A DNA stretch of 43,212 nt from a virus (IMGVR_UViG_3300042923_000568:1-43212); one strand, 5' to 3'; positions 2,237 through 38,552 are shown, counted from the first letter of the stretch. The notes: a model not told the origin generated them from the sequence alone. Translations and numbers: made by a program.

Positions 2237-2250
2237 ACAGTTATAAACAG

Positions 2251-2267: not shown

Positions 2268-2281
2268 TATGGAGGTGCGAA

Positions 2282-9651: not shown

Positions 9652-9654
9652 AGA

Positions 9655-9720: not shown

Positions 9721-9725
9721 ACAAC

Positions 9726-12707: not shown

Positions 12708-12718
12708 GTGGTGGTACA

Positions 12719-20134: not shown

Positions 20135-20152
20135 GTCAAGGTGGTGAATGAT

Positions 20153-20569
20153 ATGGCTAAAGGGATAGCGTTGGATGATAAAACCAAAGAGCAGATAAAA
20201 GCCCTGTTAGCCACTGGATTGGCAAAGAATCAGGTTGCAATAAAGGTGGGTGTATCATGGGCAACAGTGGACAAAGTAAGTAAAGAATCTCCTGATAGCC
20301 TTGAGTGTTTGCGAGAACAGAAAAGACAGGACTTTATCGACAAGATATGGGACAACATCGAGGACGCGATTGAACTTGGCCACACCATGATCAAGGAGGC
20401 CAAGGAGAATAAACGAGAAATACCGCTGTCCCACATATCGACGTATGTTGGCACATTGTACGATAAGCAAGCACTGATGAACGGCGACCCTACTGCGAAT
20501 GTAGGTGGAGGGCTGGTGATTCAAATTGGCATACCGGATGCAGCGCCAACAGAGCCGCAAGGTGATTAA
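20153..20569 (+). CDS. terS: Terminase small subunit
   Basis: A 138-aa protein from ATG 20153 with AAGGTGGTGAAT upstream. The N-terminal helix-turn-helix (KEQIKALLATGLAKNQVAIKVGVSWATVDKVSK) matches small terminase subunits that recognise the packaging site. The C-terminal half is helical (IDKIWDNIEDAIELGHTMI), suitable for ring assembly. It overlaps the large subunit start by 32 bases, which supports the call. Family membership is judged from the HTH, length and position. Confidence 0.82.
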   Translation: MAKGIALDDKTKEQIKALLATGLAKNQVAIKVGVSWATVDKVSKESPDSLECLREQKRQDFIDKIWDNIEDAIELGHTMIKEAKENKREIPLSHISTYVGTLYDKQALMNGDPTANVGGGLVIQIGIPDAAPTEPQGD

Positions 20570-22481: not shown

Positions 22482-24644
22482 ATGAAACGCAATACCGATG
22501 CTAATGCGAATGCGGTGGTGGAACAGGACTCAAAACGTATAACGCCGAGCAAGGTTGACGAACTGTTTCGAGCCGCTGAGAACTGGACCGATATACGGCA
22601 GATTATGGTTAACGTGAATTATTACGTGGGAAACCAATGGATCGGTTGGAACCGTGCCGAACGACGTATACAGGTACTACCGGTTGATTCGGGACAAGAA
22701 CGTATTACGCTTAACAAGATCCGGCCGAGGGTAACCACTCTCCTAGCCAAACATACCAAGAACAAGATCAAGTTTGACGTGGTGCCGGGATCGAAAGAGC
22801 AACGGGATATCGATACAGCCAAAGCGGCTGACAAGTATCTGAATGTCATGTGGCAGGAACTGGACTTCTCAGGCAAGACGCGTGACATTTTCCTAAACAT
22901 GCTCATCAAGAAACGTTGCTGGGTGAAAACGTGGTTCGATGCAGAGGCAGGAGAGGATATTACGCCGGTCGAAGGTGACCGAGGTTACGAAGCTTGGGTA
23001 GAGGATGGGAAGAAACCTATACATAAAGGCGTCATTCGCGCCCGTGTATGTGACCCTCTCACCATATTTGCGGACCCGGCAGCTACAACCGAAGAGGAAA
23101 TGCGCTGGATCATCGAGCGAAAAGCCCGTGACGTTGATGAAATATTCGAGGAATACGGTATAAAGGTGTCGCCTGACGCGAATATCGATTACCTCAACGC
23201 CTACGATGTAACCCGAATCAATGGGGACGGTATCGGCGCCAACGAAACCGGACGGATCAAAAACATGGCTCTCGTCTACGAATTGTGGCATAGGCCATGC
23301 AAGCGATACCCAAATGGCGTAAAAATCACCGTCTGTAATGGTCAGGAATTGGATTACAACGAAGCGTCGGGCGAATTGCCTTATACTCTATTCGGATACA
23401 TTCCAATCCCGGGAACGCTGTTGTACGACTCCATAGTGACGGATATGATCCCGGTACAGCGCAACATTAACATCAAACGTTCGATGATGGCGACGCACGC
23501 TAAGCGGTTGGGTAATAGCATGTGGCTGAATCCAGTTGGTTCCGGTGTTGACGAAGAAATGATGGTCAATGAACATGGTGGAATCATTGATTATACGCCG
23601 ATCAATGGTGCAAAACCCGAGCGTGTCGAAGCTCCAAACATCCCGAACTTCTACGACCGAGATCTTGCGAATGATGCCGTTGATATGGACGATATGTCCG
23701 GGGCTCGCGAGGTTAGCCAAGGCCGTATGCCGGCTGGTCTGGATACACTTGGCGGTCTCGAAATCATGGTCGAGCAGGAGAATGAGAAGCTGACAACCGG
23801 CGCTCAGAACTACGAGCGAGGCATGAAAAAGGTTATGCAGCGCATCCTTCGTCTCATCAAGGCTCACTATACGGAGGAACGTCAAGGCAAACTGTTGGGC
23901 GAAGATAATGAAATCGAGATTATCAGCTTCAACGGATCGGACTTGACCGGGTTCGAGGATATCAACGTTGTACAGGGGTCAAGCTTGCCGGAAATGAAAG
24001 CAGCACAGCAAGAGCGAATCATGCTCATGTGGAATTCTGGTGCGATCGTTAAGCGCGATGGTACGCCGGATCCGGTTAAGCTGCTTCGGCTTATGGGTAT
24101 GGGTGATTCGACGGAACTGTTTGAACAACACGCCTTGGACGAGAACAACGCCAAGATGGAGAACAAACAGTTTGAGGACATGGGCGAAGATCAGCAGATG
24201 ATTAACGCTGCCAAACAGTACATGGCAGATTATCAGGCGTATATGCAAGTCATGCAAACAGCGCAGCCAGAAATGGCAAGTCAAATACCGGCTCCTCCTA
24301 AGCCGCCAGGGATACCGGAAATATGGGACTCCGATGACGACGAGGTTCACGTATTCATTCACAACACGTTCCGTAAGACATCGCGTTATCGCTCTCTACC
24401 GCCTGAAATAAGGATGATGGTAGATATGCATTATCAGGAACACGTTGATCGCTTAGAAGCACCCATGAGAGCGCAACAAGCCGCGGCAATGGCAGAACAA
24501 GAAGCGCAATCGCAAGAGGCCGACAAAGGTCGCCAGCATCAAACGGAAATGAAGCAAATGGATCAGCAATCCGCTTTACAACGAGATATGCTCAAAGCTG
24601 ATACCGCCATGGCTACGGCAGCCATGAAAGGGGCAGGGGCATGA
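22482..24644 (+). CDS. P22-like portal protein
   Basis: A 720-aa portal with GGAGGTGAGCC ahead of ATG 22482. The N-terminal region (AENWTDIRQIMVNVNYYVGNQWIGWN), the segment NKIRPRVTTLLAKHTKNKIKFDVVPGS and ADKYLNVMWQELDF follow the P22 gp1-type portal family, not the smaller HK97/SPP1 types. The middle has VLDPLTIFADP-like CDPLTIFADPAA and MIPVQRNINIKRSMM. The last 120 residues are Gln/Ala-rich helix (AAAMAEQEAQSQEADKGRQH), as expected for the long helical barrel of P22-type portals. It is the unique vertex for packaging and tail assembly. This family is the main reason to call the virion a podovirus. Confidence 0.88.
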   Translation: MKRNTDANANAVVEQDSKRITPSKVDELFRAAENWTDIRQIMVNVNYYVGNQWIGWNRAERRIQVLPVDSGQERITLNKIRPRVTTLLAKHTKNKIKFDVVPGSKEQRDIDTAKAADKYLNVMWQELDFSGKTRDIFLNMLIKKRCWVKTWFDAEAGEDITPVEGDRGYEAWVEDGKKPIHKGVIRARVCDPLTIFADPAATTEEEMRWIIERKARDVDEIFEEYGIKVSPDANIDYLNAYDVTRINGDGIGANETGRIKNMALVYELWHRPCKRYPNGVKITVCNGQELDYNEASGELPYTLFGYIPIPGTLLYDSIVTDMIPVQRNINIKRSMMATHAKRLGNSMWLNPVGSGVDEEMMVNEHGGIIDYTPINGAKPERVEAPNIPNFYDRDLANDAVDMDDMSGAREVSQGRMPAGLDTLGGLEIMVEQENEKLTTGAQNYERGMKKVMQRILRLIKAHYTEERQGKLLGEDNEIEIISFNGSDLTGFEDINVVQGSSLPEMKAAQQERIMLMWNSGAIVKRDGTPDPVKLLRLMGMGDSTELFEQHALDENNAKMENKQFEDMGEDQQMINAAKQYMADYQAYMQVMQTAQPEMASQIPAPPKPPGIPEIWDSDDDEVHVFIHNTFRKTSRYRSLPPEIRMMVDMHYQEHVDRLEAPMRAQQAAAMAEQEAQSQEADKGRQHQTEMKQMDQQSALQRDMLKADTAMATAAMKGAGA

Positions 24645-25879
24645 GTACGACGTTTATAGATGATGACGGGAAATCAAAAATGCGAGTGCAAATGGACAGC
24701 GATTCGAGCGGAAGTGATAGCCCGAATTTGGTGTTTATCGATGACTCAGGGAAAGCGAAGATGAGGGTTTTTTTAGATGGCGGCGGCATGGAAGAGTATT
24801 TTGAAACAGTGACCAGCAGTAATATTTTGAACACCGCAACGGTCATTGATGGGTACATCATTGGCGGAAATTTAACCGTTGATGCCAACTATTTCACTAC
24901 GGATTATATCCCAGTAAAGAACGGCGACGTCGTTCGATACCACATCGACACGGGGATGGGTGCCAACAATAGGGTGACCCTATACAACTCCGGTAAGACG
25001 TATCTGGCTGCGGTGGACGGAACGGCGACGACATATAGGACGGCGACCATCAATAATGCGAATGTAGCGTTCATGCGGTTAAGTTTTTCAAAGTACAACT
25101 TGAACGTTGCGATGATCACCGTAAACGCCGCCTATCCTGCAACATACGAGCCGTACAAAGTGGATAAACATCTCAACGAGACCTACGGCCTGAACACGAC
25201 ACAACAGGTGCAAGTAACCAAGGTCGCTTCACCTAATCCCTTGAAGGGTAAAATCATATCACTAAACGGTGACAGTATAACCGCTGGTAGCGCCGCTAGT
25301 GTTGTAGGCGGCTATGGAAAAATCATAGCTGACCGCAATGGAATGACTTACCAAAACGTCGCCGTTAATGGTGCGACAATTGCAAGCGGAACAACAGCGA
25401 CTGGTGGGGGTAATCGTCACTGGGTTAGTCAGACTGTAGGGAGTATGCGTGCTGATGCTGATTATGTCCTACTGTCGGGTGGCGTGAATGACAAATCACT
25501 GACGACCCCGGTCACTCTCGGATCTATGACTAACGGTATGGCAGATACATACGACCATACAACTTTTTTAGGAGCAATGGAGTATATGTTCAGCCAAGCG
25601 ATTGAACGGTTCCCGGGGAAGAAAATAGGGTTTGTTTTGACTCATCGACTGTGGAATTTGAACGATGTGTTTGAAACAACATGGTATCCGGCAATTGTTA
25701 ACGTATGTCGTAAGTGGGGTATCCCGTTGTGTGACTTGTACAAGTCCGTCCCATCTCTTAATCTAATTGCATCTTTGAAAACAACTTACACGACCAACGC
25801 TGATGGGTGGCATCCGAATGAAATGGGGTACAGACTGTTTTATTGTGACAAAATCGAAGCGTGGATGAGGACATTGTAA
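24641..25879 (+). CDS. SGNH/GDSL hydrolase, probable tail-associated deacylase
   Basis: A 412-aa protein whose ATG overlaps the portal stop. Two short N-terminal repeats, FIDDDGKSKMRV (5-16) and FIDDSGKAKMRV (32-43), may form a virion anchor. A beta-sandwich-like middle (about 60-195) follows. The hydrolase domain has the four SGNH blocks: NGDSITAG with Ser212, a glycine in the AVNG block (residue 244), SGGVND with Asn283, and DGWHP with Asp388 and His391. Such enzymes remove acyl groups from polysaccharides, and in phages they commonly strip surface glycans. The placement between portal and scaffold genes is unusual for a tail component. The role is inferred. Confidence 0.85.
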   Translation: MSTTFIDDDGKSKMRVQMDSDSSGSDSPNLVFIDDSGKAKMRVFLDGGGMEEYFETVTSSNILNTATVIDGYIIGGNLTVDANYFTTDYIPVKNGDVVRYHIDTGMGANNRVTLYNSGKTYLAAVDGTATTYRTATINNANVAFMRLSFSKYNLNVAMITVNAAYPATYEPYKVDKHLNETYGLNTTQQVQVTKVASPNPLKGKIISLNGDSITAGSAASVVGGYGKIIADRNGMTYQNVAVNGATIASGTTATGGGNRHWVSQTVGSMRADADYVLLSGGVNDKSLTTPVTLGSMTNGMADTYDHTTFLGAMEYMFSQAIERFPGKKIGFVLTHRLWNLNDVFETTWYPAIVNVCRKWGIPLCDLYKSVPSLNLIASLKTTYTTNADGWHPNEMGYRLFYCDKIEAWMRTL

Positions 25880-26004
25880 GAGACTGCCCCGAGCCGATCG
25901 GGGATATCTGGCCCATGGTGAGAATCCATCGGGCCTATTCGCAATTCATATTCGTCGGGCGTTGATTCGTTTGTGGCCGCCGCACAGACAAGGAGGAAAT
26001 AAAT
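25880..26004 (+). promoter_or_regulatory. Hairpin-rich leader ahead of the scaffold and capsid genes
   Basis: Two strong stems lie here: CCCCGA-GCCGA-TCGGGG (about 25885-25901), and GGCCC-ATGG pairing with CCAT-c-GGGCC (about 25911-25936). No T-run follows either. They could stabilise the capsid transcript, mark a processing site or modulate translation. Confidence 0.4.
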
Positions 26005-26799
26005 ATGCGTTATCGTCTTCATCCCCTTTTCGAAATGGAAGGGGCTATTGGTGCTGAATCGGGCGTTGAAACGGCTCCTGTCGCCGAGGAGCAATCGCAA
26101 GTAAATGAAAATACCGCTGACGAATCGGGCGTTGAATCAAAGGCTGCCGCCGAGCCGGAGAAGCAGAATAACTTCGAGAAAGCATTCGCAAAACGCCTTG
26201 CTGCCGAGCGTGAGAAATGGGAGAAGGATCAATCCGAGAAGTTCAAGGGATTCGACGACTACAAAAAAGCTGCTGAATACCTGCAGAAGACTTCCGGAAT
26301 TTCCGACATGTTGACGCTTCGGGAGGAAATCGAGCTTTCGGAATTGCGAGAGCGTGCCGAGGAAGCAAATGTTACTCCCGAAATGCTGAAACGTATCGAC
26401 CAGCTCGAAGCCAAGGCGGCGGAAGCTGACGAAATGAAGGCCAAAGCTCAGCAGGAACGAGAGTGGCAAGAGTTTGAAACGTCGCTGAAAACGTTCTGTG
26501 ATGGCAAAGAAATCGACGGGAAACAAGTCGATCATATTGAACTTTGGAAGTTCATGCACGAAAACGGTGTCGCAAAGCCAGAGGTTGCATTTAAGGCAAT
26601 GAAGGCTGAAATTCTTGAGGCGAAACTCGAAACAGCCAAAACGGACGCGGTAAACGAGTATTTGAAGTCCAAGCAAGCGCCGAAGGTTGAAGGCACAACA
26701 GGTGCTGCAGCTCAAACGGAATTGCCACCACCTTCAACCTGGAAAGAAGCTGAGCAACGCGCTATGGAACGACTTCGGGCGGCGCGCCAACCATCATAA
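26005..26799 (+). CDS. Phage scaffolding protein
   Basis: A 264-aa protein from ATG 26005 with AAGGAGGAAATAAAT upstream. It is highly charged and mostly helical, with long coiled segments (KAFAKRLAAEREKWEKDQSEKFKGF, LREEIELSELRERAEEANV, MLKRIDQLEAKAAEADEMKAK). It ends in a Thr/Ala/Pro linker and a short terminal helix. This pattern and the position immediately before the major capsid gene are typical of scaffolding proteins, which guide prohead assembly and then leave. The call rests on composition and synteny. Confidence 0.85.
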   Translation: MRYRLHPLFEMEGAIGAESGVETAPVAEEQSQVNENTADESGVESKAAAEPEKQNNFEKAFAKRLAAEREKWEKDQSEKFKGFDDYKKAAEYLQKTSGISDMLTLREEIELSELRERAEEANVTPEMLKRIDQLEAKAAEADEMKAKAQQEREWQEFETSLKTFCDGKEIDGKQVDHIELWKFMHENGVAKPEVAFKAMKAEILEAKLETAKTDAVNEYLKSKQAPKVEGTTGAAAQTELPPPSTWKEAEQRAMERLRAARQPS

Positions 26800-26813
26800 G
26801 GAGGAATTAATTC

Positions 26814-27998
26814 ATGTCTACTACGTTAAATACAATCGGGGATGCCCTGAAAATTGATTATTTGCCGAAAATTCGTGATCAGGTCAACAACGGAAGCAAC
26901 TACTTCATCATGAAGTTGAAGCAAAAGGCAGAGAAAATCGACGGTGATGGTAAAAACTTCTACATTGCCCATCACTTCGGACGCAACAGCGGCGTGGGAG
27001 CCGGTACGGAAACGGGCGATTTGCCTACTGCCGGCAACCAAGGGTACAAAGGGTCTACGGGTAACGTGGCGTATGTCCATGGACGTCTGCAAGTCACAAA
27101 TGCCACGATCCAAGCGTCCAAACGTGACGAGACTTCTTACCTTCGAGCCATGACTTCGGAGGTTAAAGGGCTTACAACGGACTTACAAAACTACATGCGC
27201 CGGACTTCCCTGGGTGATGGGACTGGTAAGCTTGCTGGATTCCCAACACAGGCAGCAGCAAACACTTTACAGGTTGATGACGTTCGCCTGTTCTTCATCG
27301 GTCAGATCATCGATATCTATACGCTGCCTTCGACCTCCGTGGCGACCGCAAGGGTGATTACAGACGTCAATTACAACAACAAGACAATTACCATTTCCGG
27401 TGGTACTGTCGCCACTACAGCTGGCGATATCGCGGTAAACACAGGCACACTCGGACTCGATCCGATGGGACTTGCCGGAATTATCTCGGACACCTCGACA
27501 TTACAGGGGTTGGCTCCGGCAACATACGGATGGTGGAAAGCAAACATTCTTGCGAATGGTGGAACAGGACGCGCCATTTCGGAACTGCTGATCCGTTCTA
27601 TGGTGGACCGCATCGATATTGTATCGGGCAAAAAGGTAGAGTGGCTGGCAGGCTCTCACGGGATCCGGGCAGCTTATGAGGCGCTTCTGACTTCGCTCAA
27701 GCGTTTCGTAAACCCAATGCAGTTGGAGGGCGGTTATGAAGCGATCGAGTTTGACGGAAAACCTTTGATCGTAGACCGGTACATGCCTTCCAAACGTATC
27801 TGGGCCGGTAACTGGGACGATATCGGATACTACCATACTGCTGAGCTTCAGTTCATGGAGGAAGACGGCAGCATGTTCAACCGGGTACCAAACAAGCCGG
27901 CTTACGAGGCGACCGCATTTGAATATTCCACAATGGTTTGCCACGCACGTAACGCGTTCGGATCACTCGAAGATCTTAACGAGGCTCAAGGATATTGA
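26814..27998 (+). CDS. Major capsid protein (HK97 fold)
   Basis: A 394-aa protein from ATG 26814 after AAGGAGGAATTAATTC, 14 bases behind the scaffold gene. An N-terminal arm leads into the conserved PVRIGEN-like first region ([36 protein letters not shown]). An inserted beta domain follows (about residues 165-225), then the C-terminal axial part ([47 protein letters not shown]). I recognise the phage capsid style and gene order rather than a specific subfamily. A strong terminator follows, consistent with the need for abundant, separate expression of capsid mRNA. Confidence 0.88.
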
Positions 27999-28004
27999 TC
28001 AGCT

Positions 28005-28035
28005 AGAGGGGGCTTTCCGGCTCCCTCTCTTTTTA
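28005..28035 (+). terminator. Rho-independent terminator after the major capsid gene
   Basis: A 9-bp stem with one G-T pair (AGAGGGGGC/GCTCCCTCT) is followed by CTTTTTATAT. It should separate the capsid transcript from the tail genes or reduce read-through. Confidence 0.85.
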
Positions 28036-28052
28036 TATAAGGGGGAAACGGG

Positions 28053-28427
28053 ATGAACCACCACTACCGAAACGGATTTCAACGGACATTTACTAACGAC
28101 ATTTACAAAGTGGAAGAACAGTTACAGGCCTACGATAAACATCTATACGTGATGTACAACACGCATACAGACGAACACCTGATCATGGATGGTCTGGTTG
28201 GACTTGCCATAATGAAGATACCTCAACCGGGATTCCCGGTTTTAAATAGCAGTGTAGTAGACCATATGAAACGAATACACACGGCCAATGGATTCAGCGC
28301 CGTTAAACATATAACAGCATCAGACGACGCCAGGGAACGCGAATACGATCGTAGAAGCGATGACTTAGCTGTAAACTTCGCTCAAGACACGATCAAGTCA
28401 GCGCGGAAATTAGCCTATTATGGGTAG
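28053..28427 (+). CDS. Hypothetical virion-region protein
   Basis: A 124-aa protein with AAGGGGGAAACGGG before ATG 28053. The outline is YKVEEQLQAYDKHLYVMYN, then LVGLAIMKIPQPGFPVL, and a helical acidic end (DDLAVNFAQDTIKSARKLAYYG). No family is recognised. Between capsid and adaptor genes, a head or head-completion role is plausible; a small internal or decoration protein is also possible. Confidence 0.7.
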   Translation: MNHHYRNGFQRTFTNDIYKVEEQLQAYDKHLYVMYNTHTDEHLIMDGLVGLAIMKIPQPGFPVLNSSVVDHMKRIHTANGFSAVKHITASDDAREREYDRRSDDLAVNFAQDTIKSARKLAYYG

Positions 28428-28435
28428 GTGATACT

Positions 28436-29005
28436 ATGAATGTTGGAGAAATTTTAGACCGAGTACGTTTGGAAATCGATCATGATCAGACTGATGCACA
28501 GGTCATAGGAAGGCTCAATCAAACAGATAAACGACTGTACCGGAAGTTTGAATTTCCAGAAAAAATCTCTAGGTTTGAAACGACATCAATACCTTATTAT
28601 GAATTGCCAGATGATTGCCCAGAAGATCGCATACGTTGTGTTGTGATTGATGGCGTCGAATACACCAAACTCACACCCGAAATTCAATATCCGCCTCCAT
28701 ATTTCTGTACAGCATTGTTAGGGGCGCTTTATATCAATGTAAATCCCGTTGGCAGGTATGCCTATTTGTACTACAGGAGTAGACCGGGCACAATGACCGC
28801 AACAAACTTGTCCTATGTGCCGGGAATGCCAGAAGATTACCACGAGTTGTACGTATATGATGCGGCTCAGTGGATCGCAGGGATCCAACGTGACACCGAT
28901 ATGAAAAATAATTTTATGACAGAATACGATACGATTTACAAAGATGCAATTAAAGATCTTAAAAAAATGGGTTTACGTCGTGTCAAGGAAACAACAAGTT
29001 GGTGA
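28436..29005 (+). CDS. gp4-like head-to-tail adaptor
   Basis: A 189-aa protein from ATG 28436 with GTAGGTGATACT upstream. It fits the P22 gp4-type adaptor group: a short N-terminal helical part (VGEILDRVRLEIDHDQTDAQVIGRLNQTDKRLYRKFEFP), a beta-rich core with YYELPDDCPEDRIRCVVIDG, and a C-terminal helical region (MPEDYHELYVYDAAQWIAGIQRDT). Such proteins extend the portal ring and receive the tail hub. The length and position match. The family call is by eye. Confidence 0.75.
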   Translation: MNVGEILDRVRLEIDHDQTDAQVIGRLNQTDKRLYRKFEFPEKISRFETTSIPYYELPDDCPEDRIRCVVIDGVEYTKLTPEIQYPPPYFCTALLGALYINVNPVGRYAYLYYRSRPGTMTATNLSYVPGMPEDYHELYVYDAAQWIAGIQRDTDMKNNFMTEYDTIYKDAIKDLKKMGLRRVKETTSW

Positions 29006-29016
29006 GGTGATTCACG

Positions 29017-30606
29017 TTGTCCATTAATCAAACAGCTTTTTCAATTGCAATGAAAGATATGGGTTTTATGATAAATGCAGCACAAGCGAATATGAAATAT
29101 CTTTCGGGTCCTGTATATAACGTTTTAGGGTATGGGGCTAAAGGCGATGGCGTAAAAGATGATACAGCATCGATCCAGAAGGCTATAGATGCAGCTTATG
29201 CAGCTGGTGGAGGTCAAGTATTTTTCCCGACAGGAACCTATCTAACCTCGCGCTTGTATTTAAAATCCAATGTCCGAATGAACGGTAATGGTGCAACACT
29301 GAAAGCGTCTGTAGGTTCAAATTATATCATTTCCTTGGTAAACGGCAGCAATATGATCATCGAGGATTTCATTTTCGATTGTACGAATCTAACTGCTATT
29401 GGAGGGGACGATGGGGCTGGTGCATCTGCTGTATACTTGCCCGTAACTCAACAGCCGTTTGACTTCATACACGTGGTAGATAACAAATTTATCAATATCC
29501 CCATGAATGCACAAGAGTATCATGCTTTGCTAGTTAATGGAGCGAATATTTATGTGAGTGGGAATTACGTACCGCAATGCGGTGGAGACTCACTAAATTT
29601 CAATGGAGGATTGAATATTGTAACAAATAATATAGTCAAAAACTCCAATGATGGTGCAATCGCATTTAATAATGGCGCTAAAGGAATAATATCAAACAAT
29701 ATTATCGAAAAATGCAACTTAGGAGTTGGAGCCGGTCCGGAAGGAACAAATACCGATCCCGACTTATACGAGCATCAATTCGTAATTTCTAATAATGAAA
29801 TAACGGGATGCGATTATGGGATGCTTTTTGGTTGGTTTGGTTATGTCGGAAGGAACGGACCGACAAACTTTATTGTACAGGGAAATACGATCAGAAAATG
29901 TCGGAGTGCTGCTTTCCAGTATGACGGAGCGACGAACACATGGGAAGCAAATGGCTCTATCATAGGAAATGTAATCACCGGTACTGGTTCGGACTTATAT
30001 AACGGCACATTTTCAACAAATTGCCATGATATTTTGGTTGTAAATAGTGGTTTGGTAAACATCACTGGAAATACATGTGTTAGATCAGAAGGTACAGGAA
30101 CTAGACAAGGAATATACGTTTCAAATTCTGATAATATAACCGTTGAAGCGAACAACATCAGGGGAAAGGATTCTTCACCATATTCGTACGGGATCTATGT
30201 TGACGATTGCCAATTTAGCAATTTCAATAATAACAATATCAACCTCGCAACCACAGGTATTTTGAGTGAAGATAGCGGAAGATCACGGGGGAAATATAAT
30301 GCATATTGCTCTAACTCGATATTCCAATTTGGTGATAAAGGTATCGTCATCATAGAATCCGCAACTAATTTCGAAATCTCCGAAAACACCATATTTTCGG
30401 GTGCTTCCAATGCTTGGGGAATTCATATTTCGCCAGTAGCACAATTTTTCTCCGTTTCCAACAACACTATATACGTACCGAATTACGCGATAGCTATCAA
30501 CGCAGGACCGGCAGACAATTACCGCGTCGAAGGAAATACCGTGTTTAGTAAATTGATTGATGACGCCGGAACTGGAACAAGTAAACAGGTTACAAATAAC
30601 TGGTGA
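29017..30606 (+). CDS. Beta-helix tailspike (pectate-lyase-like)
   Basis: A 529-aa protein from TTG 29017 with GAGGTGATTCACG upstream. A 35-residue N-terminal virion-binding part precedes the Pectate_lyase_3 signature VLGYGAKGDGVKDDTASIQKAIDAA at about 43-67 and GGGQVFFPTGTYL. The rest is a right-handed parallel beta-helix with repeated asparagine-ladder turns (NNIVKNSNDGAIAFNN, ISNNIIEKCNLG, SNNEITGCDYG). Tailspikes with this fold bind and often cut surface polysaccharides. No catalytic residues can be assigned by eye. AT-rich codons and position suggest host-range variation. Confidence 0.88.
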   Translation: MSINQTAFSIAMKDMGFMINAAQANMKYLSGPVYNVLGYGAKGDGVKDDTASIQKAIDAAYAAGGGQVFFPTGTYLTSRLYLKSNVRMNGNGATLKASVGSNYIISLVNGSNMIIEDFIFDCTNLTAIGGDDGAGASAVYLPVTQQPFDFIHVVDNKFINIPMNAQEYHALLVNGANIYVSGNYVPQCGGDSLNFNGGLNIVTNNIVKNSNDGAIAFNNGAKGIISNNIIEKCNLGVGAGPEGTNTDPDLYEHQFVISNNEITGCDYGMLFGWFGYVGRNGPTNFIVQGNTIRKCRSAAFQYDGATNTWEANGSIIGNVITGTGSDLYNGTFSTNCHDILVVNSGLVNITGNTCVRSEGTGTRQGIYVSNSDNITVEANNIRGKDSSPYSYGIYVDDCQFSNFNNNNINLATTGILSEDSGRSRGKYNAYCSNSIFQFGDKGIVIIESATNFEISENTIFSGASNAWGIHISPVAQFFSVSNNTIYVPNYAIAINAGPADNYRVEGNTVFSKLIDDAGTGTSKQVTNNW

Positions 30607-30619
30607 AAAGGGGATAAGT

Positions 30620-32029
30620 ATGACTTACTGGCAGCCAATACACGGCATATCTGATCCAATCCCTATACGATCCTTTGACGGCGTATATAAACCTGATGAC
30701 GAAGGGTTTAACCTACCAGAGTCATTATTCACGGAACTGATCAACTTCGCCCCTGACGACCATCCAGCGCTTACCACAAGACCGGGATATTCGGTGGTAG
30801 GGACGTTTGGTACCCGGGTGTTGGGATTTGGTGCTTGGAAGGATAATGAGCTTCATGCGGTATTCTCGGATGGCACATGGCGCAAATACGATGGATCAAC
30901 ATGGACCACATTGGCAACGGGTTTAAATACTTCTGCCGAATGGTCTTTTTGTAATTTCAAAGGAAATCTCGCCGGTATTAACCTGATAGGAGCAAATGGA
31001 GTTGATCCGATTAAACGGTATGACGGAGCAACGGTACAGAACCTTGCAAACGCTCCTGCAGGCGGAAAATATATCGATACACAGTCAAACCGTCTTTACT
31101 GCGCGGTAGGCAATATAGTGAAATACTCAGCGCTAAATAAGGCAGACGACTGGACAACAGTTAACGAGGCCGGCGAGGTCGTATACGAAACGAATAGCGG
31201 TGAAGATATAAACGGCTTAAATGCTGGTAACGGAAATGTTACTGCGTTTAAGCCGTCTTCTATTCGCGAATTATACGGAACCGGACCTAGCAGTTATAAG
31301 TTTGAAGCTGTATCTGCCGACATAGGGATAACTGGCGACAAGGCTGTAACAGTAAACAATGATCTGCTTCCGATGATCGGACGGGACGGAATATATATTT
31401 ATTCCGGTGGTCTTCGCCCAAAGAAAGACTTCTCTAGGCCGGTTGATAACTTCGCTTTAGAAATGAATCAATCTCAATTAGCAAAATGCGCTGCAGGCAC
31501 AGACGGTAAGCACATCTACTTTGCAATACCTTACAAATCGGCGACTGAAAACAATCGCATCCTGCAGTTCGACACGATCCATAAGAACTGGTATACCTGG
31601 GATGGGATCGCCGTCACGCACTTCCTACGCATCAAAGATAAGCTTTATATCGGTGACGCTTCGGGCCGAGTATTGCTCGTTGGAGGCACGACAGATGGAG
31701 GGCAACCCATAACGTCTACAGCTATTACAAAGCCGTTCACAGCCGGTTCTATCGCTCGTAGGAACCAATGGTTCAAGCTTTGGGTGGTAGTGAGTATTCC
31801 GACCGGAAGCACGATTTCCATCTACGTTAGTCCATCGGCTCAAGGAGAAGACTGGGTCCTAGCGAACACGATGACCTCAAATTCAAACATCCAGTATAAA
31901 AAGATTCTTGTCCCTACAAATAGCGTTGCAAGGGCGAATGCGGTTCGCTTAAAGATCGTAGCGACGGGCCCCGTAACGATCCACGAAATAACTAGACAGG
32001 TACGGGAATTGCCGATGGGAGGTAAATAA
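30620..32029 (+). CDS. gp10-like tail hub / stabilisation protein
   Basis: A 469-aa protein from ATG 30620 after AAAGGGGATAAGT; an upstream in-frame ATG lies inside the tailspike gene. It is beta-rich with propeller-like repeats: LGFGAWKDNELHAVFSDGTWRKYDGSTW, FCNFKGNLAGINLIGANG, YIDTQSNRLYCAVGNIVKYS. The style matches P22 gp10-type packaged-DNA stabilisation proteins, which plug the portal and form the short tail hub. The C-terminal beta domain (FKLWVVVSIPTGSTISIYVS) may bind the tailspike or needle. The family call is by eye and gene order. Confidence 0.72.
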   Translation: MTYWQPIHGISDPIPIRSFDGVYKPDDEGFNLPESLFTELINFAPDDHPALTTRPGYSVVGTFGTRVLGFGAWKDNELHAVFSDGTWRKYDGSTWTTLATGLNTSAEWSFCNFKGNLAGINLIGANGVDPIKRYDGATVQNLANAPAGGKYIDTQSNRLYCAVGNIVKYSALNKADDWTTVNEAGEVVYETNSGEDINGLNAGNGNVTAFKPSSIRELYGTGPSSYKFEAVSADIGITGDKAVTVNNDLLPMIGRDGIYIYSGGLRPKKDFSRPVDNFALEMNQSQLAKCAAGTDGKHIYFAIPYKSATENNRILQFDTIHKNWYTWDGIAVTHFLRIKDKLYIGDASGRVLLVGGTTDGGQPITSTAITKPFTAGSIARRNQWFKLWVVVSIPTGSTISIYVSPSAQGEDWVLANTMTSNSNIQYKKILVPTNSVARANAVRLKIVATGPVTIHEITRQVRELPMGGK

Positions 32030-32031
32030 TT

Positions 32032-32709
32032 ATGCCGATTATGGCGATTCACGTCATTCAAGACGATATTACGCATGAGGAGCTATTGGAGGAATTCGCG
32101 AAACTGCAAAAGACAGTCAGGTACATCCTCAATGGGCAAATCGATTTCGAAAATATCCGGGCACGCAGCATCCAAGCGGAAAATATCGCAGTTGGGGCGA
32201 TAACAGCCGAGGAAATTGCAACGAATTCAATAACAGCGGACAAGATGGATGTAAATGAATTATCCGCAATAACGGCCAATATGGGCACTATCACGGCCGG
32301 GTCGATAACTACCGATGCCCATATTGATGTAGGAACGGATGCCAGGATCGGAAATATACTGTACTTAAACGAATCTGACGGGACTGGTTCAAAAGGCATT
32401 GTCTTCTCTACAGCGGCAGGTCAAACGGCAAGAATATCGTCGCAGTCAGGGGATATTGGAATCCAGTCCGGGGGATTTATCACCTTTACAATAGGCAGTT
32501 CGCAAGGTGCTGTATTTAATCAGCGCGTTCAAGCCCCAAATTTCAATGCGACATCCTCCATTACAATAAATAATGCAGCAGTAGCCACAGAAGGGTATGT
32601 GAACGCAGGTCTAGCAACAAAAGCAAATGTATTTACTGGATATTCGGGCAGCATCCCAGCGGGCGCAACATTATTCGTCTCAAATGGAGTAATTACTGGG
32701 TATACCTAA
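32032..32709 (+). CDS. Tail fibre or needle-like protein
   Basis: A 225-aa protein from ATG 32032, 2 bases after the preceding stop, with GGGAGGTAAATAATT upstream. The N-terminus is helical (EELLEEFAKLQKTVRYILNG). Residues 50-95 are repeats typical of trimeric phage fibres (NIAVGAITAEEIATNSITADKMDV, ITANMGTITAGSITTD). A small beta-prism-like distal part follows, ending in a glycine-rich tip. Such repeats pack as a triple helix. Given the P22-type layout it could be the cell-wall-penetrating needle or a short fibre. Confidence 0.72.
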   Translation: MPIMAIHVIQDDITHEELLEEFAKLQKTVRYILNGQIDFENIRARSIQAENIAVGAITAEEIATNSITADKMDVNELSAITANMGTITAGSITTDAHIDVGTDARIGNILYLNESDGTGSKGIVFSTAAGQTARISSQSGDIGIQSGGFITFTIGSSQGAVFNQRVQAPNFNATSSITINNAAVATEGYVNAGLATKANVFTGYSGSIPAGATLFVSNGVITGYT

Positions 32710-32732
32710 TCACGAGTAAAGGAGAAATAACA

Positions 32733-32885
32733 ATGTCCGAGATTGCAGTAATTCTTTCCATAATTGCCGTATTAACAGGCGTATCGGTTCAAGCTTGCAA
32801 GGAACCGAAGATTAAGATGGTGCAGATAAAATATGAAATCGGAGAGCCGTTAACGATCACGAAAGAAAAGGTCATAAAAGATTAA
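32733..32885 (+). CDS. Small membrane or lipoprotein-like protein
   Basis: A 50-aa protein from ATG 32733 with AAAGGAGAAATAAC upstream. A hydrophobic N-terminal segment (IAVILSIIAVLTGVSV) is followed by QACKEPK, a weak lipobox candidate, and a basic tail. It lacks the usual basic start of a signal peptide. It may be a single-span phage membrane protein. The function is unknown. Confidence 0.65.
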   Translation: MSEIAVILSIIAVLTGVSVQACKEPKIKMVQIKYEIGEPLTITKEKVIKD

Positions 32886-32888
32886 TTC

Positions 32889-32917
32889 GGTCGCCTAAAG
32901 GCGGCTTATTTTATTTC
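32889..32917 (+). terminator. Rho-independent terminator
   Basis: A 6-bp stem GTCGCC-TAAA-GGCGGC (one G-T pair) followed by TTATTTTATTT, right after the 50-aa gene. It divides the tail genes from the large internal-protein genes. Confidence 0.75.
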
Positions 32918-32933
32918 GCCAAGGGGTGATATT

Positions 32934-34199
32934 ATGGCAACATCCACACAGCCGGTAAAGACCGTACCAGCGCCGAAACAAATGATTTCGCCGAGTAACG
33001 TGAACATTACAAAAAATGTGCCACCTCCACCTACCGAGAGCCAAAAGGCCGCACAGGATTGGATCAACAACCCAAAGAGTGGACAAGGCGGCATGGACCT
33101 TTATACGAAGGTACAAAACGATCGGTGGCAGACAGCGAACAAGAACAAGGACTACGACCTCATGAAGCGTCTACAGTCCGACTCGCAGGGTGTAGGCTAT
33201 ACACTAAACCCGTACAATCCACCGGCGCCAAACACATCAGCTCCGAAAGAGTTTGCAGACTGGCAAGCGAAGCAAGGGGAATTAATGCAAAAATTCGAAA
33301 CCATGCTGAATAATCCAGTCCAGTTCAATCCAGAAACGGACCCAAGGTATCAGGCATTCCGGCAATTGTCACAGAAGCGAGCAGGAGACGCAAGCAGGGC
33401 GGCTATGGAGACGATGAATGACCGGGGCTTGCTGAATAGTTCAATCACGGCATCTCAACTCGGGCAAATCCAACAGGGGGCCGAACAGGAAGCGCTAGCA
33501 GCTATACCGCAATTCTATGCAGAGGCGCGCCAAGACTATCAGGACCGCCTTCGTAATGCGGCTGAGATGCTTCGGTTCGCTGCTGGTCGTGGTGATGTTG
33601 CCGCCGACTTGGATTACCGCAATCAACGTGCGGCACGTTCGGATATGGAATCGGATCGGACGTTTGATCGTAGTGTGCTTGAAAGCAATCGCAACTTTGA
33701 TCGTGGGGCGTTCGAGAATGACAGGGCCTATGAATATCAAGTCGGACGTGATCAAGTAGGCGATCAGCGATATGCACAGGAATTCGAATACCAGCAAGCG
33801 CGCGACCAGATCAAAGACGAGCAGTACAAGCAGCAGTTTGATGAGGACGTTCGTCGATTTGGCCTAGATTACGCATTACGAGCTGCAGCTCAGGCGAACC
33901 AATTCGCGAATGCCGCGGCTGATAATGCGAGGGCGAATGCGTCGTTGGGTCTGCAGAGAGAACGGTTTGAGTTTGATAAGCAGCAAGCAAATTCAAAAGG
34001 ATCTACCGGAACACGTAATTCGTATAAGGAAAATCCGGAGTATTCGCAAGAGTTGCAGTATATTTATTCTAATCCTAAAAATGCAATTAATGAGATTCAG
34101 GATAATGTACAGGCTCTGATAGAGGCGTATGGGAACGATGGGTATAACGATCTCTTAAAGGAAGCACAGCGAGTTCAAAAGGCGTCTAGTGAAGGCTAG
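32934..34199 (+). CDS. Presumed internal virion / DNA ejection protein
   Basis: A 421-aa protein from ATG 32934 with AAGGGGTGATATT upstream. The front is proline-rich and disordered. The middle has SQKRAGDASRAAMETMNDRGLLNSS, a motif I associate with small-virion internal proteins. Residues about 225-320 form a degenerate repeat of Asp/Arg/Phe units (DRTFDRSVLESNRNFDRGAFENDRAYEYQ in outline). The C-terminal third is long helix. Together with the following 1183-aa gene it occupies the place of P22 ejection genes (7, 20, 16). Ejection is an inference from position and composition. Confidence 0.6.
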   Translation: MATSTQPVKTVPAPKQMISPSNVNITKNVPPPPTESQKAAQDWINNPKSGQGGMDLYTKVQNDRWQTANKNKDYDLMKRLQSDSQGVGYTLNPYNPPAPNTSAPKEFADWQAKQGELMQKFETMLNNPVQFNPETDPRYQAFRQLSQKRAGDASRAAMETMNDRGLLNSSITASQLGQIQQGAEQEALAAIPQFYAEARQDYQDRLRNAAEMLRFAAGRGDVAADLDYRNQRAARSDMESDRTFDRSVLESNRNFDRGAFENDRAYEYQVGRDQVGDQRYAQEFEYQQARDQIKDEQYKQQFDEDVRRFGLDYALRAAAQANQFANAAADNARANASLGLQRERFEFDKQQANSKGSTGTRNSYKENPEYSQELQYIYSNPKNAINEIQDNVQALIEAYGNDGYNDLLKEAQRVQKASSEG

Positions 34200-34213
34200 G
34201 GAGGTGTGGGACG

Positions 34214-37200
34214 GTGGCCGTATTAGGTAGTAAGAGAGAAGGTAGCGAGTCCGGCGGTATTCTGTCCAGGAAGAAGAAAGCCCAATCCTTCGAAAACGTT
34301 CTTGGTGTAAAACCCCCGACTCTTGATGTTGGTAATTCTCAACTCGGACGCGATATCGAGCGATTCGAAGTTGAGCAAGCTTCGAAACCACCCGAACCAC
34401 CGGAACCTAGCTTTTTAGATAAATCGCTGTCAATTCTCGGCAGACCAAAAGAAGTTGGAAAAATGGCGCTCGATATTGTCGGGCGTCCTTCTCAGGTTCT
34501 AGCTGAAATGGCGACTCCGACAGCTCCTATGATACGTCCAGCAGAAGGTGGAGGATCGGAGAATATCCCAGGTACGAATGCACGGGAGGAGCTTCTTAAG
34601 CGTACAGGACAGCGACCGGCAGAAGGTTCGGAACGTGTACTAGGCGCGATCGGTGCTTCTTTCCTACCTATGGGTGGAGGTGGACCTCTCGGGCCAAGTT
34701 CTGGGAATCTATACCGCGCTGCAGGTGATGTAGCTGAACAGTTTTTAACACGGGCCGGAACTGGATTAGGTGGAAGAGTGGCAAGAGAGGTCGCAACAGA
34801 AGCAATGGCCGGCGTACCACTTGGTATCGGACAATCACTTGGCACAGGATCCGGGGATATGCGTGAAGCTGTAACGGAGGGATTGATAGGAGGCGCTCTA
34901 GGCGTAGGATTAGGCGCTGCTGGCCCTGCAATTGGTGCGGCAGGTAAAAGGATTCTTGGACGTTCTAAAGCTCCTGATGCGCCTACAGGTACTTCTAAGG
35001 CGCAGGTGGTGGAACCTACGGTATCACCCGAAAAATCGCCAGCAGAAGAAGCGAAACCGATGCAACAAAATTGGTTTACACGCCTATTCGGTGAGCAGAA
35101 TCTAGGCATTACACCATTCGGTTCAAACAAGAGCAACAGGATGGTAGAAACCGCTCAGCAGATCGTCAATAATCCATTGAAAAACAATGTGACCGGCGCT
35201 GTAGAAAAAACCAAACAAGCAGGTCGGGCGGCTTATCAGAATACCGTCGATTACCTATCCCCGTTAAAAACGATAAACCGCGAGACGTATGACGCAGCAT
35301 TGGACGCCTCCAGGGCTAACAATATTGCGAATACGATCGTGCGCGATAAGTTCGTCGATAACGAGGGGAACGTGATAGGGTCAAGCTTGAACGACATCAT
35401 GACTCAGGTTCGTGGCCTGGGTAAGAAATTCGACGATTACATCGTTCTACGTCACGCCATAACGCGTATGAAACGTGGTGAGAAGGTATATGACGACGCG
35501 CTGAATATGACGCCTGAGAAAGCAGCGGAAGCCGTTGCAAAGCTTGAAGCACGGTACCCCGAAATAAAGAAGGCCGGGGAAGATTGGGATGCATTCAACA
35601 CGAACCTGCTTGATTCCGGAGTTCGAGAAGGACTGATTTCCCAAGCAGCAAGGGATGCAATGAGGGAACAGAATCCGAACTACGCATCTATGCGCCGGCA
35701 ATTCGAATTAGGCGAAAAACTTGCTCGACCAAGATTCGGTGGCGGTGGTTCTGCGTTCTCCGGACAATCGGCACCGATAAAATCGGTATCGCCAACCGGT
35801 TCTACACGCAAGATCGTAAGCCCGATACGATCCGCAATCGAACAGGCTTATGCTTGGAAGAACGCCGAACTTCGAAATAGAACGATGCAACAAGTCGTTA
35901 AGTCGATTCAGGCAGATCCCGAAGGAATGAAGGGGATCGTCGAAATCGTTAAAAAGCCATCTACCAGTTACCGCAGTTTGGACGATGCATTGCGCGAAGG
36001 TGGCTCGGAAGAGTTCTTGGAACAGCTTGACAACGATTATAAATCGCTTTTCAAAGCTGCCAAGACTGGAGAAGAGAACATTGTACGAGCTATGATAAAC
36101 GGCCAACCGGTATATGTTAAGGTACATAATCCGGAGGCTGTAAAGGCGCTTCTCGGCATGGGATCCGATCAAACGGGTATCGTCCTCGGAGCGCTGCAAA
36201 TGCTATCCAATGCGACGAAACGCGGCGCTACGGGTCTCCTCGCTCCGATGTTTGCTGTTAAGAACCTTACGGCCGACACGGTTCAGGCAGCGATACAGTC
36301 ACCAAATGCAATCAAGCACATTGCCGTAGATATGCCATACGCTCTAATTAGTTCGGTTGCTGACGTTCTTAGAATCCCGGGCCTGAAAAACCTTGCCGAA
36401 GACTTCCGACGTTCTGGTGGTGAGTATTCGGCCCTATTGCGCGGCGACCGGCCAGTAAATCGAGCAGTATTCAATCTACGGAAAGAAGCGCCGTTGTCTA
36501 CCGCTGGAATCGCTAAAGGTGCCGTGTCAGCCCTCAAAGCTCCGTTTAAAGGACTGGAGAAGATTGCAGACGTTACGGAAAACGTAAACCGCATGGCAGC
36601 GTTTAGACGTGCTATGGTGGGTAAGGAACGCACTCCCGAGAATGTCCGTAATGCCATTAATGCGGCACGTGAATCAACCACAAACTTCTCTCGTAAAGGG
36701 TCGTTCTATCAGCAAACCGAAGCGCTTGTTCCGTACTCCAATGCTGCTGTGCAAGGGATCTACCGGATAGCTAAGTCGTTCTATAAAAATCCGGTGAAGA
36801 CGCTGGCTGGCGTAGGGACATTGGTAATTGCTCCGAAACTCTACGAGTACGCGCAGTTCAACGATGACCCGGATTATCAGAAGCTTCCGGCTCGGGAACG
36901 GTACCGGAACGTTTTTGTAGGAAAGAATAAAGACGGAACCTTTGTTAAGCTTCCCATGCCGCCTGAATATGAAGCGTTTGGGGCGTTTATGACGGATGTG
37001 ATGAACCATATCATTCAAGGTGATCCGCAAGCCTACAAAGGCACGCTGGACGCTGTAGTCAATGCCTTTACGCCTCCGTTGGTATCTGGCGCATTGCAAG
37101 GAGCAACGCAAGGTGGAGGGCCGGAGCAGAGTCTAGCCGGCGCTATCAATTCTACGGTAGCAGCTCCTGGCGTGGCGATGGTGGCTAACAAGAGCTTCAC

Positions 37201-37765
37201 CGGTGCGCCGATTGTTCCGAAGCGCTTGGAAGATGTATCCGCGAGAAACCAATACGACGAGCGTACAAGCAGTATATCCAAGACGATCGGCGAGAAGATC
37301 GGCATGTCACCGATGAAGGTTGATTACCTGCTACGTGCATACGGTGGCGACCCGGCGAGATTGCTGCTTCCTTTGAACTCGCCAGTAGGTGGAGGCACTA
37401 CGCGGAATACGCTGCTTAAAAACTTCATCTCGGATCCGGTGTTTACCAATACGCTGTCCGATGATTTCTATACAGCCAAGGAGAAATACACCAAAGCCAA
37501 GAATGATAATGAGAAATTCGGCGATCCGTTGCCGTCCTGGTACTCTGAATCGATGGAAAAGCTAATTAATTCTCAGGCCAAAAATTCAGTATCGAAAAAT
37601 CTGTCTGCACTTAATGAAAAGAAACGGCAGATTTCCGGCGATCAAAGTCTCGGGGCGAAGGATAAGGCTCAGAGATTGCGGACAGTCCAAGCGCAAATCA
37701 ACGAAATCTACACTGACGTTAACAGCCAACTAGTTTCAACTGGATTCAAGTTTCCTAATCGCTAG
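34214..37765 (+). CDS. Very large internal virion protein with LPD38-like region
   Basis: A 1183-aa protein from GTG 34214 with GGGAGGTGTGGGACG upstream. Residues 1-110 are basic and disordered. Residues about 175-255 are glycine/alanine-rich and could insert in membranes (GGALGVGLGAAGPAIGAAG). A long helical middle follows (about 300-650). Residues about 775-950 resemble the large polyvalent-protein domain LPD38: NVRNAINAARESTTNFSRKG, ALVPYSNAAVQGIYRIAKSFYKNPVKT, LPARERYRNVFVGKN, LPMPPEYEAFGAF. Polyvalent proteins are carried in the virion and delivered with the DNA, often to counter host defences. No protease, lytic transglycosylase or nuclease signature is visible. I infer a combined ejection-channel and delivered protein. 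Confidence 0.65.
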   Translation: MAVLGSKREGSESGGILSRKKKAQSFENVLGVKPPTLDVGNSQLGRDIERFEVEQASKPPEPPEPSFLDKSLSILGRPKEVGKMALDIVGRPSQVLAEMATPTAPMIRPAEGGGSENIPGTNAREELLKRTGQRPAEGSERVLGAIGASFLPMGGGGPLGPSSGNLYRAAGDVAEQFLTRAGTGLGGRVAREVATEAMAGVPLGIGQSLGTGSGDMREAVTEGLIGGALGVGLGAAGPAIGAAGKRILGRSKAPDAPTGTSKAQVVEPTVSPEKSPAEEAKPMQQNWFTRLFGEQNLGITPFGSNKSNRMVETAQQIVNNPLKNNVTGAVEKTKQAGRAAYQNTVDYLSPLKTINRETYDAALDASRANNIANTIVRDKFVDNEGNVIGSSLNDIMTQVRGLGKKFDDYIVLRHAITRMKRGEKVYDDALNMTPEKAAEAVAKLEARYPEIKKAGEDWDAFNTNLLDSGVREGLISQAARDAMREQNPNYASMRRQFELGEKLARPRFGGGGSAFSGQSAPIKSVSPTGSTRKIVSPIRSAIEQAYAWKNAELRNRTMQQVVKSIQADPEGMKGIVEIVKKPSTSYRSLDDALREGGSEEFLEQLDNDYKSLFKAAKTGEENIVRAMINGQPVYVKVHNPEAVKALLGMGSDQTGIVLGALQMLSNATKRGATGLLAPMFAVKNLTADTVQAAIQSPNAIKHIAVDMPYALISSVADVLRIPGLKNLAEDFRRSGGEYSALLRGDRPVNRAVFNLRKEAPLSTAGIAKGAVSALKAPFKGLEKIADVTENVNRMAAFRRAMVGKERTPENVRNAINAARESTTNFSRKGSFYQQTEALVPYSNAAVQGIYRIAKSFYKNPVKTLAGVGTLVIAPKLYEYAQFNDDPDYQKLPARERYRNVFVGKNKDGTFVKLPMPPEYEAFGAFMTDVMNHIIQGDPQAYKGTLDAVVNAFTPPLVSGALQGATQGGGPEQSLAGAINSTVAAPGVAMVANKSFTGAPIVPKRLEDVSARNQYDERTSSISKTIGEKIGMSPMKVDYLLRAYGGDPARLLLPLNSPVGGGTTRNTLLKNFISDPVFTNTLSDDFYTAKEKYTKAKNDNEKFGDPLPSWYSESMEKLINSQAKNSVSKNLSALNEKKRQISGDQSLGAKDKAQRLRTVQAQINEIYTDVNSQLVSTGFKFPNR

Positions 37766-37800: not shown

Positions 37801-37980
37801 ATGATCCACATGATTGTTCAAATGTGCACCATTACCCAACAGCCGGCTGATCAAAGCGAGTTTTACCGCGCGGTATGCAAAACACACGGTAAAGCTACCG
37901 CCGACAAATTAACCTATGAAGCGATCATTCCACCTCTGGAGGAACCATGTACGACCTCATCCTCGATACGATCGGGATAA
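37801..37980 (+). CDS. Small hypothetical protein at start of lysis cassette
   Basis: A 59-aa protein from ATG 37801 with GGAGGTGAGCC upstream. It opens with a methionine-rich strand (IHMIVQMCTITQQP), then a helical part (SEFYRAVCKTHGKATADKL). The final 11 residues overlap the next gene's start. The family is not recognised. Confidence 0.6.
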   Translation: MIHMIVQMCTITQQPADQSEFYRAVCKTHGKATADKLTYEAIIPPLEEPCTTSSSIRSG

Positions 37981-38552
37981 TCATTAAAAATGGGTGGTCG
38001 CTTTCTACTGCTGCAGGTTTGACGATTCTGTTTTTCCGGCAACGTAGGATGCGTAATAAGCTGCGGCAGTTCCTCCCGTTTCTCTTCCAGGAGGACAGCG
38101 AGGTTAAGCAATATATCCAGAACCAACACTCCATCATGGAGAATCAGCGCCGGATTATGGAGCATATGGGGGTGATGCCGTGGTCTGCAGACTCGAAAGT
38201 ATCAAAACTCTCAGCGACGAAGCGAACTACGTTATTCGCACGTTTGGTCCACTTTTTTGCCCGTTCTGCACAAGGAAAAACCGAGTATGGACGTACCACA
38301 ATTTCAGGGAGGATGAGAAGAATGAAGCTCGATAAAGTATGGATCGGCGGTTTGATTGGGTATGTTGCATATTTCATAAAGCAATTTACCGGATTCGAAG
38401 TTCCTGACGAGATGATCGACAAGTCGGCGGAACTGGTTCTATTAGTGGTAATGATCATCGCCATGATTCGTAACATGACCAAATCGAAGGAGGCGAAACC
38501 GGTTGAGCATAAGGAATCTTACGGCGATCACGGGCCTACCATTCACGGCTAA
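37947..38552 (+). CDS. Membrane protein, long form containing a holin-like C-terminus
   Basis: A 201-aa frame from ATG 37947 (CTGGAGGAACC upstream). An N-terminal transmembrane helix (GWSLSTAAGLTILFF) is followed by a basic stretch and a helical segment (DSEVKQYIQNQHSIMENQRRIMEHMGV). The middle (about 77-125) overlaps the 38180 gene and looks less natural. The final 76 residues equal the separate holin-like protein that can start at 38322. The frame stays open across all three, so either the product is a natural fusion or a stop between two genes was lost. It is probably involved in lysis timing. Confidence 0.6.
   Translation: MYDLILDTIGIIIKNGWSLSTAAGLTILFFRQRRMRNKLRQFLPFLFQEDSEVKQYIQNQHSIMENQRRIMEHMGVMPWSADSKVSKLSATKRTTLFARLVHFFARSAQGKTEYGRTTISGRMRRMKLDKVWIGGLIGYVAYFIKQFTGFEVPDEMIDKSAELVLLVVMIIAMIRNMTKSKEAKPVEHKESYGDHGPTIHG
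38180..38335 (+). CDS. Small zinc-finger-like protein nested in another frame
   Basis: A 51-aa protein from GTG 38180 with GGGGGTGATGCC upstream. It lies inside the 37947 gene but in a different frame. Its sequence reads as a genuine protein (LESIKTLSDEANYVIRTFG) with CPFC near residue 27 and WTYHNFREDEKNE after it. Its end overlaps the internal start of the holin-like protein, suggesting coupling. The function is unknown. Confidence 0.55.
   Translation: MVCRLESIKTLSDEANYVIRTFGPLFCPFCTRKNRVWTYHNFREDEKNEAR
38322..38552 (+). CDS. Holin-like short form (internal start)
   Basis: A 76-aa product from the internal ATG 38322, in frame with the 37947 gene. The start is supported by AGGGAGGATGAGAAGA immediately upstream. 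Two hydrophobic segments (WIGGLIGYVAYFIKQF and LVLLVVMIIAMIR) flank an acidic turn, and the tail is charged. This two-span layout next to the amidase gene is typical of small phage holins, which open the membrane to release or activate the endolysin. Confidence 0.65.
   Translation: MKLDKVWIGGLIGYVAYFIKQFTGFEVPDEMIDKSAELVLLVVMIIAMIRNMTKSKEAKPVEHKESYGDHGPTIHG

Follow-up and report, generated by a model that had tools for sequence, protein, structure and literature searches.

The window, by which we mean the whole stretch of 43,212 bases analysed here (IMG/VR virus record IMGVR_UViG_3300042923_000568), is very probably a Paenibacillaceae prophage that makes a short, non-contractile tail, built with a portal of the P22/SU10 family, an adaptor of the SU10/T7/KHP30 type and a hub with the gp10 fold, and that carries lysogeny genes. 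Its product is almost certainly a temperate podovirus; the lineage is known here from its genes alone, and particles have been imaged only for homologues. Three lines of evidence agree on the short tail: homologues with known particles, the predicted folds of the adaptor and the hub, and the absence of tube, sheath and tape-measure families. The tail combines components familiar from SU10, T7 and P22 and does not copy that of P22. Short-tailed phages with an SU10-type adaptor and a gp10-type hub are already a known kind; here the kind is temperate and is found in Paenibacillaceae.

Gene content of the window

The module under study spans positions 22482-37765. A preliminary description had read it as the P22-type morphogenesis module of a temperate podovirus from a Bacillales host, and every ORF that it named in this range was found where it had been placed. 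Two genes were missing from its list, those for the SGNH/GDSL hydrolase and for the 124-aa protein. The genes of the window that concern us are the following:

1740..2108, minus strand: CI-type HTH repressor (PF01381 2.4e-16; phrog_8 7e-28)
2213..2509, plus strand: Cro-like HTH protein (PF01381 1.4e-15)
2524..3255, plus strand: Rha/KilAC antirepressor (PF03374 1.6e-33, PF09669 2e-30)
12623..13543, plus strand: DnaD-like replisome organiser (PF09524 6.7e-25; phrog_2514 5.8e-36)
13416..14351, plus strand: DnaC-like helicase loader (phrog_50 9e-49)
20141..20569, plus strand: probable terminase small subunit, an HTH protein (position; HTH_7 1e-3; weak phrog_2538 0.03)
20526..22022, plus strand: terminase large subunit, TerL (PF04466 1.8e-7; phrog_979 1e-40)
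22482..24644, plus strand: portal protein, P22/SU10 family (P22_portal, PF16510, 8.2e-21; SU10_portal 5.8e-16; phrog_156 5e-62; tblastn to the Jasmine and Adat portals, best 7e-38)
24641..25879, plus strand: SGNH/GDSL hydrolase, probable virion-borne deacetylase/esterase (PF13472 3.1e-14; phrog_5240 tail fibre 1e-67 over residues 120-412)
26005..26799, plus strand: probable scaffold (position; a charged sequence of coiled-coil-like character; relatives have a homologue at this place)
26814..27998, plus strand: major capsid protein (phrog_14242 major head protein 5.8e-150; 28-34% identity to the Jasmine, Shocker and DS1 capsids)
28053..28427, plus strand: conserved 124-aa protein between capsid and adaptor, kept in that position in relatives
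28436..29005, plus strand: head-to-tail adaptor, SU10/T7 type (SU10_adaptor 8.4e-15; AlphaFold model pLDDT 72; Foldseek KHP30 4.5e-9, SU10 6e-8)
29017..30606, plus strand: beta-helix tailspike with conserved N-terminal anchor (PF12708 1.1e-16; phrog_2234 tail spike 1.9e-21; N-terminal motif across relatives)
30620..32029, plus strand: hub/nozzle, P22 gp10-like beta-propeller protein (AlphaFold model pLDDT 75.6, pTM 0.76; Foldseek matches)
32032..32709, plus strand: central fibre or needle (conserved 94-aa N-terminus and variable C-terminus by blastp across relatives; putative needle by position only)
32934..34199, plus strand: probable internal/ejection protein (conserved in place in relatives)
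34214..37765, plus strand: putative large internal/ejection protein with an LPD38 domain (PF18857 1.8e-35; homologues in relatives)
37947..38552, plus strand: probable holin/membrane protein (beside the amidase gene; homologues in relatives L020 and L048)
38503..39300, plus strand: endolysin, N-acetylmuramoyl-L-alanine amidase (PF01510 1.7e-11)
39375..40556, minus strand: acyltransferase-3 family membrane protein (PF01757 6.3e-27)
41163..42614, minus strand: large serine recombinase integrase (PF00239 2e-37, PF07508 1e-25; phrog_95 integrase 7e-120)

The P22-like portal of the preliminary description was supported by its family match. The scaffold candidate matched phrog_20249, a family of unknown function. 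When the portal and capsid were used in tblastn, Jasmine, Adat and relatives, Shocker and DS1 were found over 82-99% of the length (portal about 24% identity over 82-91%, capsid 98-99% covered). The hosts of these phages are Arthrobacter (Jasmine, Adat), Microbacterium (Shocker) and Cellulosimicrobium (DS1). Jasmine is a podovirus by electron microscopy, with a head of 59.8 nm and a tail of 10.3 nm (PMC5513430), and Adat, GurgleFerb and Nellie are likewise podoviruses (PMC5794937). Among the proteins of the module, none matched the tape-measure, tail-tube, sheath or baseplate PHROG families; an adaptor and a hub/nozzle are thus present with no tube, sheath or tape measure, the absence that had been claimed for this range.

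The window encodes an integrase and a repressor, and it has integrated relatives, as expected of a temperate phage. Operator-like repeats of the GACGCAAAACGAGTCA type (repeats D2/D3) lie at 2158-2496, around the divergent CI/Cro region. Family searches also placed Erf, SSB and RusA proteins in the early region, together with a phrog_36 protein that we take to be an ArpU-like regulator. The same region holds a PAPS reductase-like protein (9600-10652; phrog_424 3e-18). Note that the family matches of the small terminase candidate were judged too weak for a firm name. The acyltransferase-3 protein, encoded beside the lysis genes, is a candidate for lysogenic conversion of the surface glycan.

The adaptor and the hub

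The 28436 product had been described as a gp4-like adaptor, and here the preliminary description did not hold. P22_Tail-4 (PF11650, the gp4 family) gave no match in the window, with its positive control in E. coli detected, and the protein between capsid and nozzle matched SU10_adaptor instead. The same family was found in Jasmine and Shocker, in which a hub-size protein follows, and in divergent Paenibacillaceae members. Structure prediction led to the same result: the adaptors of KHP30, SU10, B2, Pa223, crAss001, N4, DEV, VP1 and GP4 were closest to the model in Foldseek, and no P22 or Sf6 chain appeared among its 50 best structural matches. Short-tailed phages accounted for 16 of the 19 PDB matches at E<=1e-3, and neck proteins of long-tailed phages stood lower in the list (P1 connector 3.9e-5, T5 8.6e-5, DT57C 1e-4). 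A fibre-dock domain is present in the SU10, T7 and KP32 adaptors and absent from those of P22 and Sf6 (PMC9509320). In our model, a strand-rich segment (residues 42-114), flanked by helices 20-37 and 133-150, appears to resemble this domain.

In contrast to the gp4 claim, the gp10-like hub was borne out, in fold. With the start taken as the ATG at 30620 (the ORF caller offers an upstream TTG at 30557), the Foldseek matches of the hub model were led by Pa223 (1.5e-22), followed by VP1, Pan3, P22 gp10 (5e-17, TM about 0.6), Sf6 gp8, Pam1 and SU10. Propeller folds are common. In this list, unrelated beta-propellers came only from rank 28 down, whereas the 27 best PDB matches were all phage tail proteins (Pa223, VP1, Pan3, P22, Sf6, Pam1, SU10, GP4, T7 and others), aligned over the full length. 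The likeness to gp10 is at the level of the fold only (8eap, 8u10, 9jg6): Phage_stabilise (PF11134, the gp10 family) gave no sequence match for the hub, with a positive control used. Model confidence was moderate, with mean pLDDT of 72 for the adaptor and 76 for the hub. Aligned sequences of adaptor, hub, portal and capsid, searched against the PDB, gave nothing significant, the best lead being the Pa223 tail protein (0.026, for the hub). By hhalign, the hub matched the Jasmine gene 25 product with 53% probability (E 1e-4) and P22 gp10 weakly (4.8%, E 0.008); the other comparisons with single P22 and Jasmine proteins were mostly null, as a profile built from one sequence is poor.

Known short-tailed phages each share part of this arrangement. 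Jasmine-type phages have, in the same order as the window, an SU10_adaptor protein, a hub-size protein, a mid-size protein, a very large protein and lysis genes. However, Jasmine and the other cluster AV phages were reported without lysogeny genes, with direct terminal repeats and with a replication gene set based on DNA polymerase I, the large proteins of the Jasmine-type phages have no detectable similarity to those of the window, and their hosts are Actinobacteria. Escherichia phage SU10 (Kuravirus) shares the SU10_portal and SU10_adaptor families, the order adaptor, long fibre, nozzle and needle (putative in the window), and the nozzle fold, but its head is prolate and its nozzle protein larger, its hub likeness is structural only, and the temperate lifestyle sets the window phage apart. 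Salmonella phage P22 shares the P22_portal family, the hub fold, the gene order, the temperate lifestyle and a beta-helix spike; the window differs from it in an adaptor that is not gp4-like, a spike gene beside the adaptor gene, DnaD/DnaC replication and a serine integrase, and its putative needle and ejection proteins have no detectable homology to those of P22. Finally, the hub model matched the tails of Pa223 (first), VP1, GP4 and Pam1, and the adaptor model matched the adaptors of the first three, but these phages have Gram-negative or cyanobacterial hosts and the likeness is structural, at 10-16% identity.

These comparisons bear on three other readings of the module. A strict P22-type podovirus in a Bacillales host, with homologues of gp4, gp10, gp26 and gp7/16/20, would account for the P22_portal match, the structural match of the hub to P22 gp10 and the order common to P22 (portal, scaffold, coat, adaptor, hub, needle position, internal proteins). 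We consider it unlikely: the gp4 and gp10 Pfam families were silent with positive controls used, the adaptor is of the SU10 family and carries a dock-like insertion, a feature absent from the adaptors of P22 and Sf6 (PMC9509320), the P22 ejection-protein families were unmatched, and profile comparison with P22 gp4 and gp5 was null, though single-sequence profiles are weak. The P22-type label therefore stood for the portal family and the hub fold and failed for the adaptor. Even less probable is a long-tailed siphovirus with a borrowed podovirus head. Head modules do move between relatives, and the 32032 product weakly matches the middle parts of long tail proteins through a repeat-like region (phrog_1101 8e-9), but the hub and the adaptor both match short-tail machines, the tape-measure, tube and baseplate families were unmatched, and the tail module is kept as a block.

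The podoviruses known from Bacillota belong mostly to the small phi29 group, and a short tail and a Bacillota host would fit a member of it. That group is effectively refuted because terminase and replication genes are present: the window has TerL and DnaD/DnaC replication, as the preliminary description had proposed in place of the phi29 plan, in a genome of 43 kb. Moreover, pRNA was not matched in the window (Rfam), and no ORF of the size of a PF03175 polymerase is left unassigned (the PF03175 search was silent in its own control). A podovirus with an SU10-type adaptor and a gp10-fold hub thus remains the preferred reading.

Spike, fibre and internal proteins

The spike carries an N-terminal motif near A(M/Y/F)xIAx(K/R)(D/E)(M/L)GxLIxxA, found in the window, L002, L004, L005, L006 and L018 and, in a looser form, in L020. 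Beyond this short anchor the protein is replaced between relatives, so that the anchor is kept and the receptor domain swapped. The spike gene lies directly 3' of the adaptor gene, and in SU10 the long-fibre gene (gp12) directly follows the adaptor gene (gp11) (PMC9509320). The motif may dock the spike on the adaptor. Like the spike, the 32032 product keeps its N-terminus, the first 94 residues, and varies beyond it.

For the 32032 product, which had been likened to the gp26 needle, the position was right and homology gave no support, as it matched no needle family in Pfam or PHROG. P22-type ejection proteins were likewise not recovered at the sequence level: the 32934 and 34214 products matched none of the gp7, gp16 and gp20 families and only other families. 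Relatives of the 1183-aa protein escaped an exact peptide-pattern scan, but many were recovered by blastp and profile searches. Two divergent members have a wall hydrolase gene beside the internal-protein genes, an SLT transglycosylase (L046) and a glucosaminidase (L045), which suggests that such phages may cross the thick wall by means of an ejected wall-opening enzyme. No such enzyme was recognised in the window.

We propose that the adaptor would form a ring under the portal, with its fibre-dock domain holding the beta-helix spike by the short N-terminal motif, and that the hub ring would close the channel, with the 32032 product as its plug or tip. Surface glycan might be trimmed by the spike and by the SGNH hydrolase, whose gene lies between those of portal and scaffold, and the 32934 and 34214 proteins would be packaged in the head and then ejected to extend the channel.

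Two further observations concern accessory genes. Between the spike and hub genes, L005:11942-13303 encodes a protein with many membrane spans that by eye resembles an O-antigen ligase/polymerase. Secreted proteins with PF07833 (copper-amine-oxidase-N 'stalk domain') occur in or beside several of the phages (window 3-998, minus strand; L004:16168-16695; L020:12213-12860; L046:13298-14068, the last by eye only). Several of these genes lie between the fibre and internal-protein genes and are possible morons; that of the window may be host flank.

Relatives and integration sites

The genome scan identified loci in Paenibacillus gorillae, P. algorifonticola, Cohnella panacarvi and Cohnella sp. GbtcB17. 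The capsid gene was present in 5 of 201 genomes from a drawn set of Paenibacillaceae, 2 of the 5 being known beforehand. Regions L037/L038 of P. algorifonticola had no phage genes and were left out of the relatives. With local variation, the recurring order is TerL, portal, scaffold, capsid, 124-aa protein, adaptor, spike, hub, fibre, internal proteins, holin-like gene and amidase. Chance does not explain the arrangement: prophages and viral contigs that are independent of one another have this order, and most of their proteins are 40-89% identical. Since relatives with the same order are prophages in Paenibacillaceae chromosomes, the proposed Bacillales-type host was supported; the proposed short tail and temperate lifestyle were too, by the imaged homologues, the adaptor and hub folds, the integrase and repressor and the integrated relatives. 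The "enterobacterial-type tail plan" of the preliminary description was the wrong frame, because the closest relatives with a name infect Gram-positive Actinobacteria.

Identities differ block by block among relatives, so head and tail recombine separately. L020 and L021 have capsids of 45% and hubs of 63% identity, and one has the 1183-aa protein at 31%, the other at 52%. In L022 and L023 the tail cassette (hub 42%, adaptor present) is kept, with an almost unrelated portal and no capsid homologue detected, a head swap; G060, G184 and G151 keep the head and have diverged tails. Given this exchange, a head homologous to those of imaged podoviruses would not by itself establish the tail type, and the structural evidence on the tail matters.

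Two integrated relatives were placed in their chromosomes. The P. gorillae prophage is embedded in a contig of 179 kb, flanked on each side by host-type genes. That of C. panacarvi lies on a 4.77 Mb scaffold (genome 1361697-1404649; L032:11334-11858 and L033/L034), between chromosomal genes and the initial portion of a manganese-catalase gene (PF05067 7e-50), which we take to be the spore-coat gene cotJC (CotJC type) and which the prophage interrupts. By eye, one flank holds a Fur-type regulator, transporters, an undecaprenyl-diphosphatase-like gene and others. An 11-bp core, GGCGATCCGAT, occurs once at each end of the prophage within the stretch examined, the two copies being 42,952 bp apart, and next to it lies the gene of a large serine recombinase that shares about 41% identity with the window's. 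When the flanks were joined, the frame was restored to an unbroken protein of 189 residues; therefore, the C. panacarvi prophage may be a sporulation element like skin or SPbeta. No convincing direct repeats were found at the two ends of the window, and its own attachment site was not found. Prophages that split sporulation genes are known, as SPbeta in spsM (PMC4191935), and other cases exist; a narrow literature search returned no report of cotJC as a prophage site.

A broader picture is tentative, and we hold it as possible rather than probable: a widespread temperate short-tailed lineage of Gram-positives would join Actinobacteria and Bacillota, with head and tail cassettes recombining freely and at least one member (C. 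panacarvi) in cotJC, whose excision in the mother cell would restore the gene in the manner of skin and SPbeta. If this is true, some of these phages would be sporulation switches.

In the open-access literature, where a failed search is weak evidence of absence, we found no paper on a temperate, terminase-packaging podovirus of Bacillota. This is an ordinary-looking and little described prophage lineage of Paenibacillus/Cohnella-type bacteria, and it links isolated actinobacterial podoviruses to Paenibacillaceae prophages. Since named strains carry relatives in their chromosomes, particles could be induced and imaged directly, and the lineage offers a tractable system for studying how a thick Gram-positive wall is crossed by a short tail and its ejected proteins.
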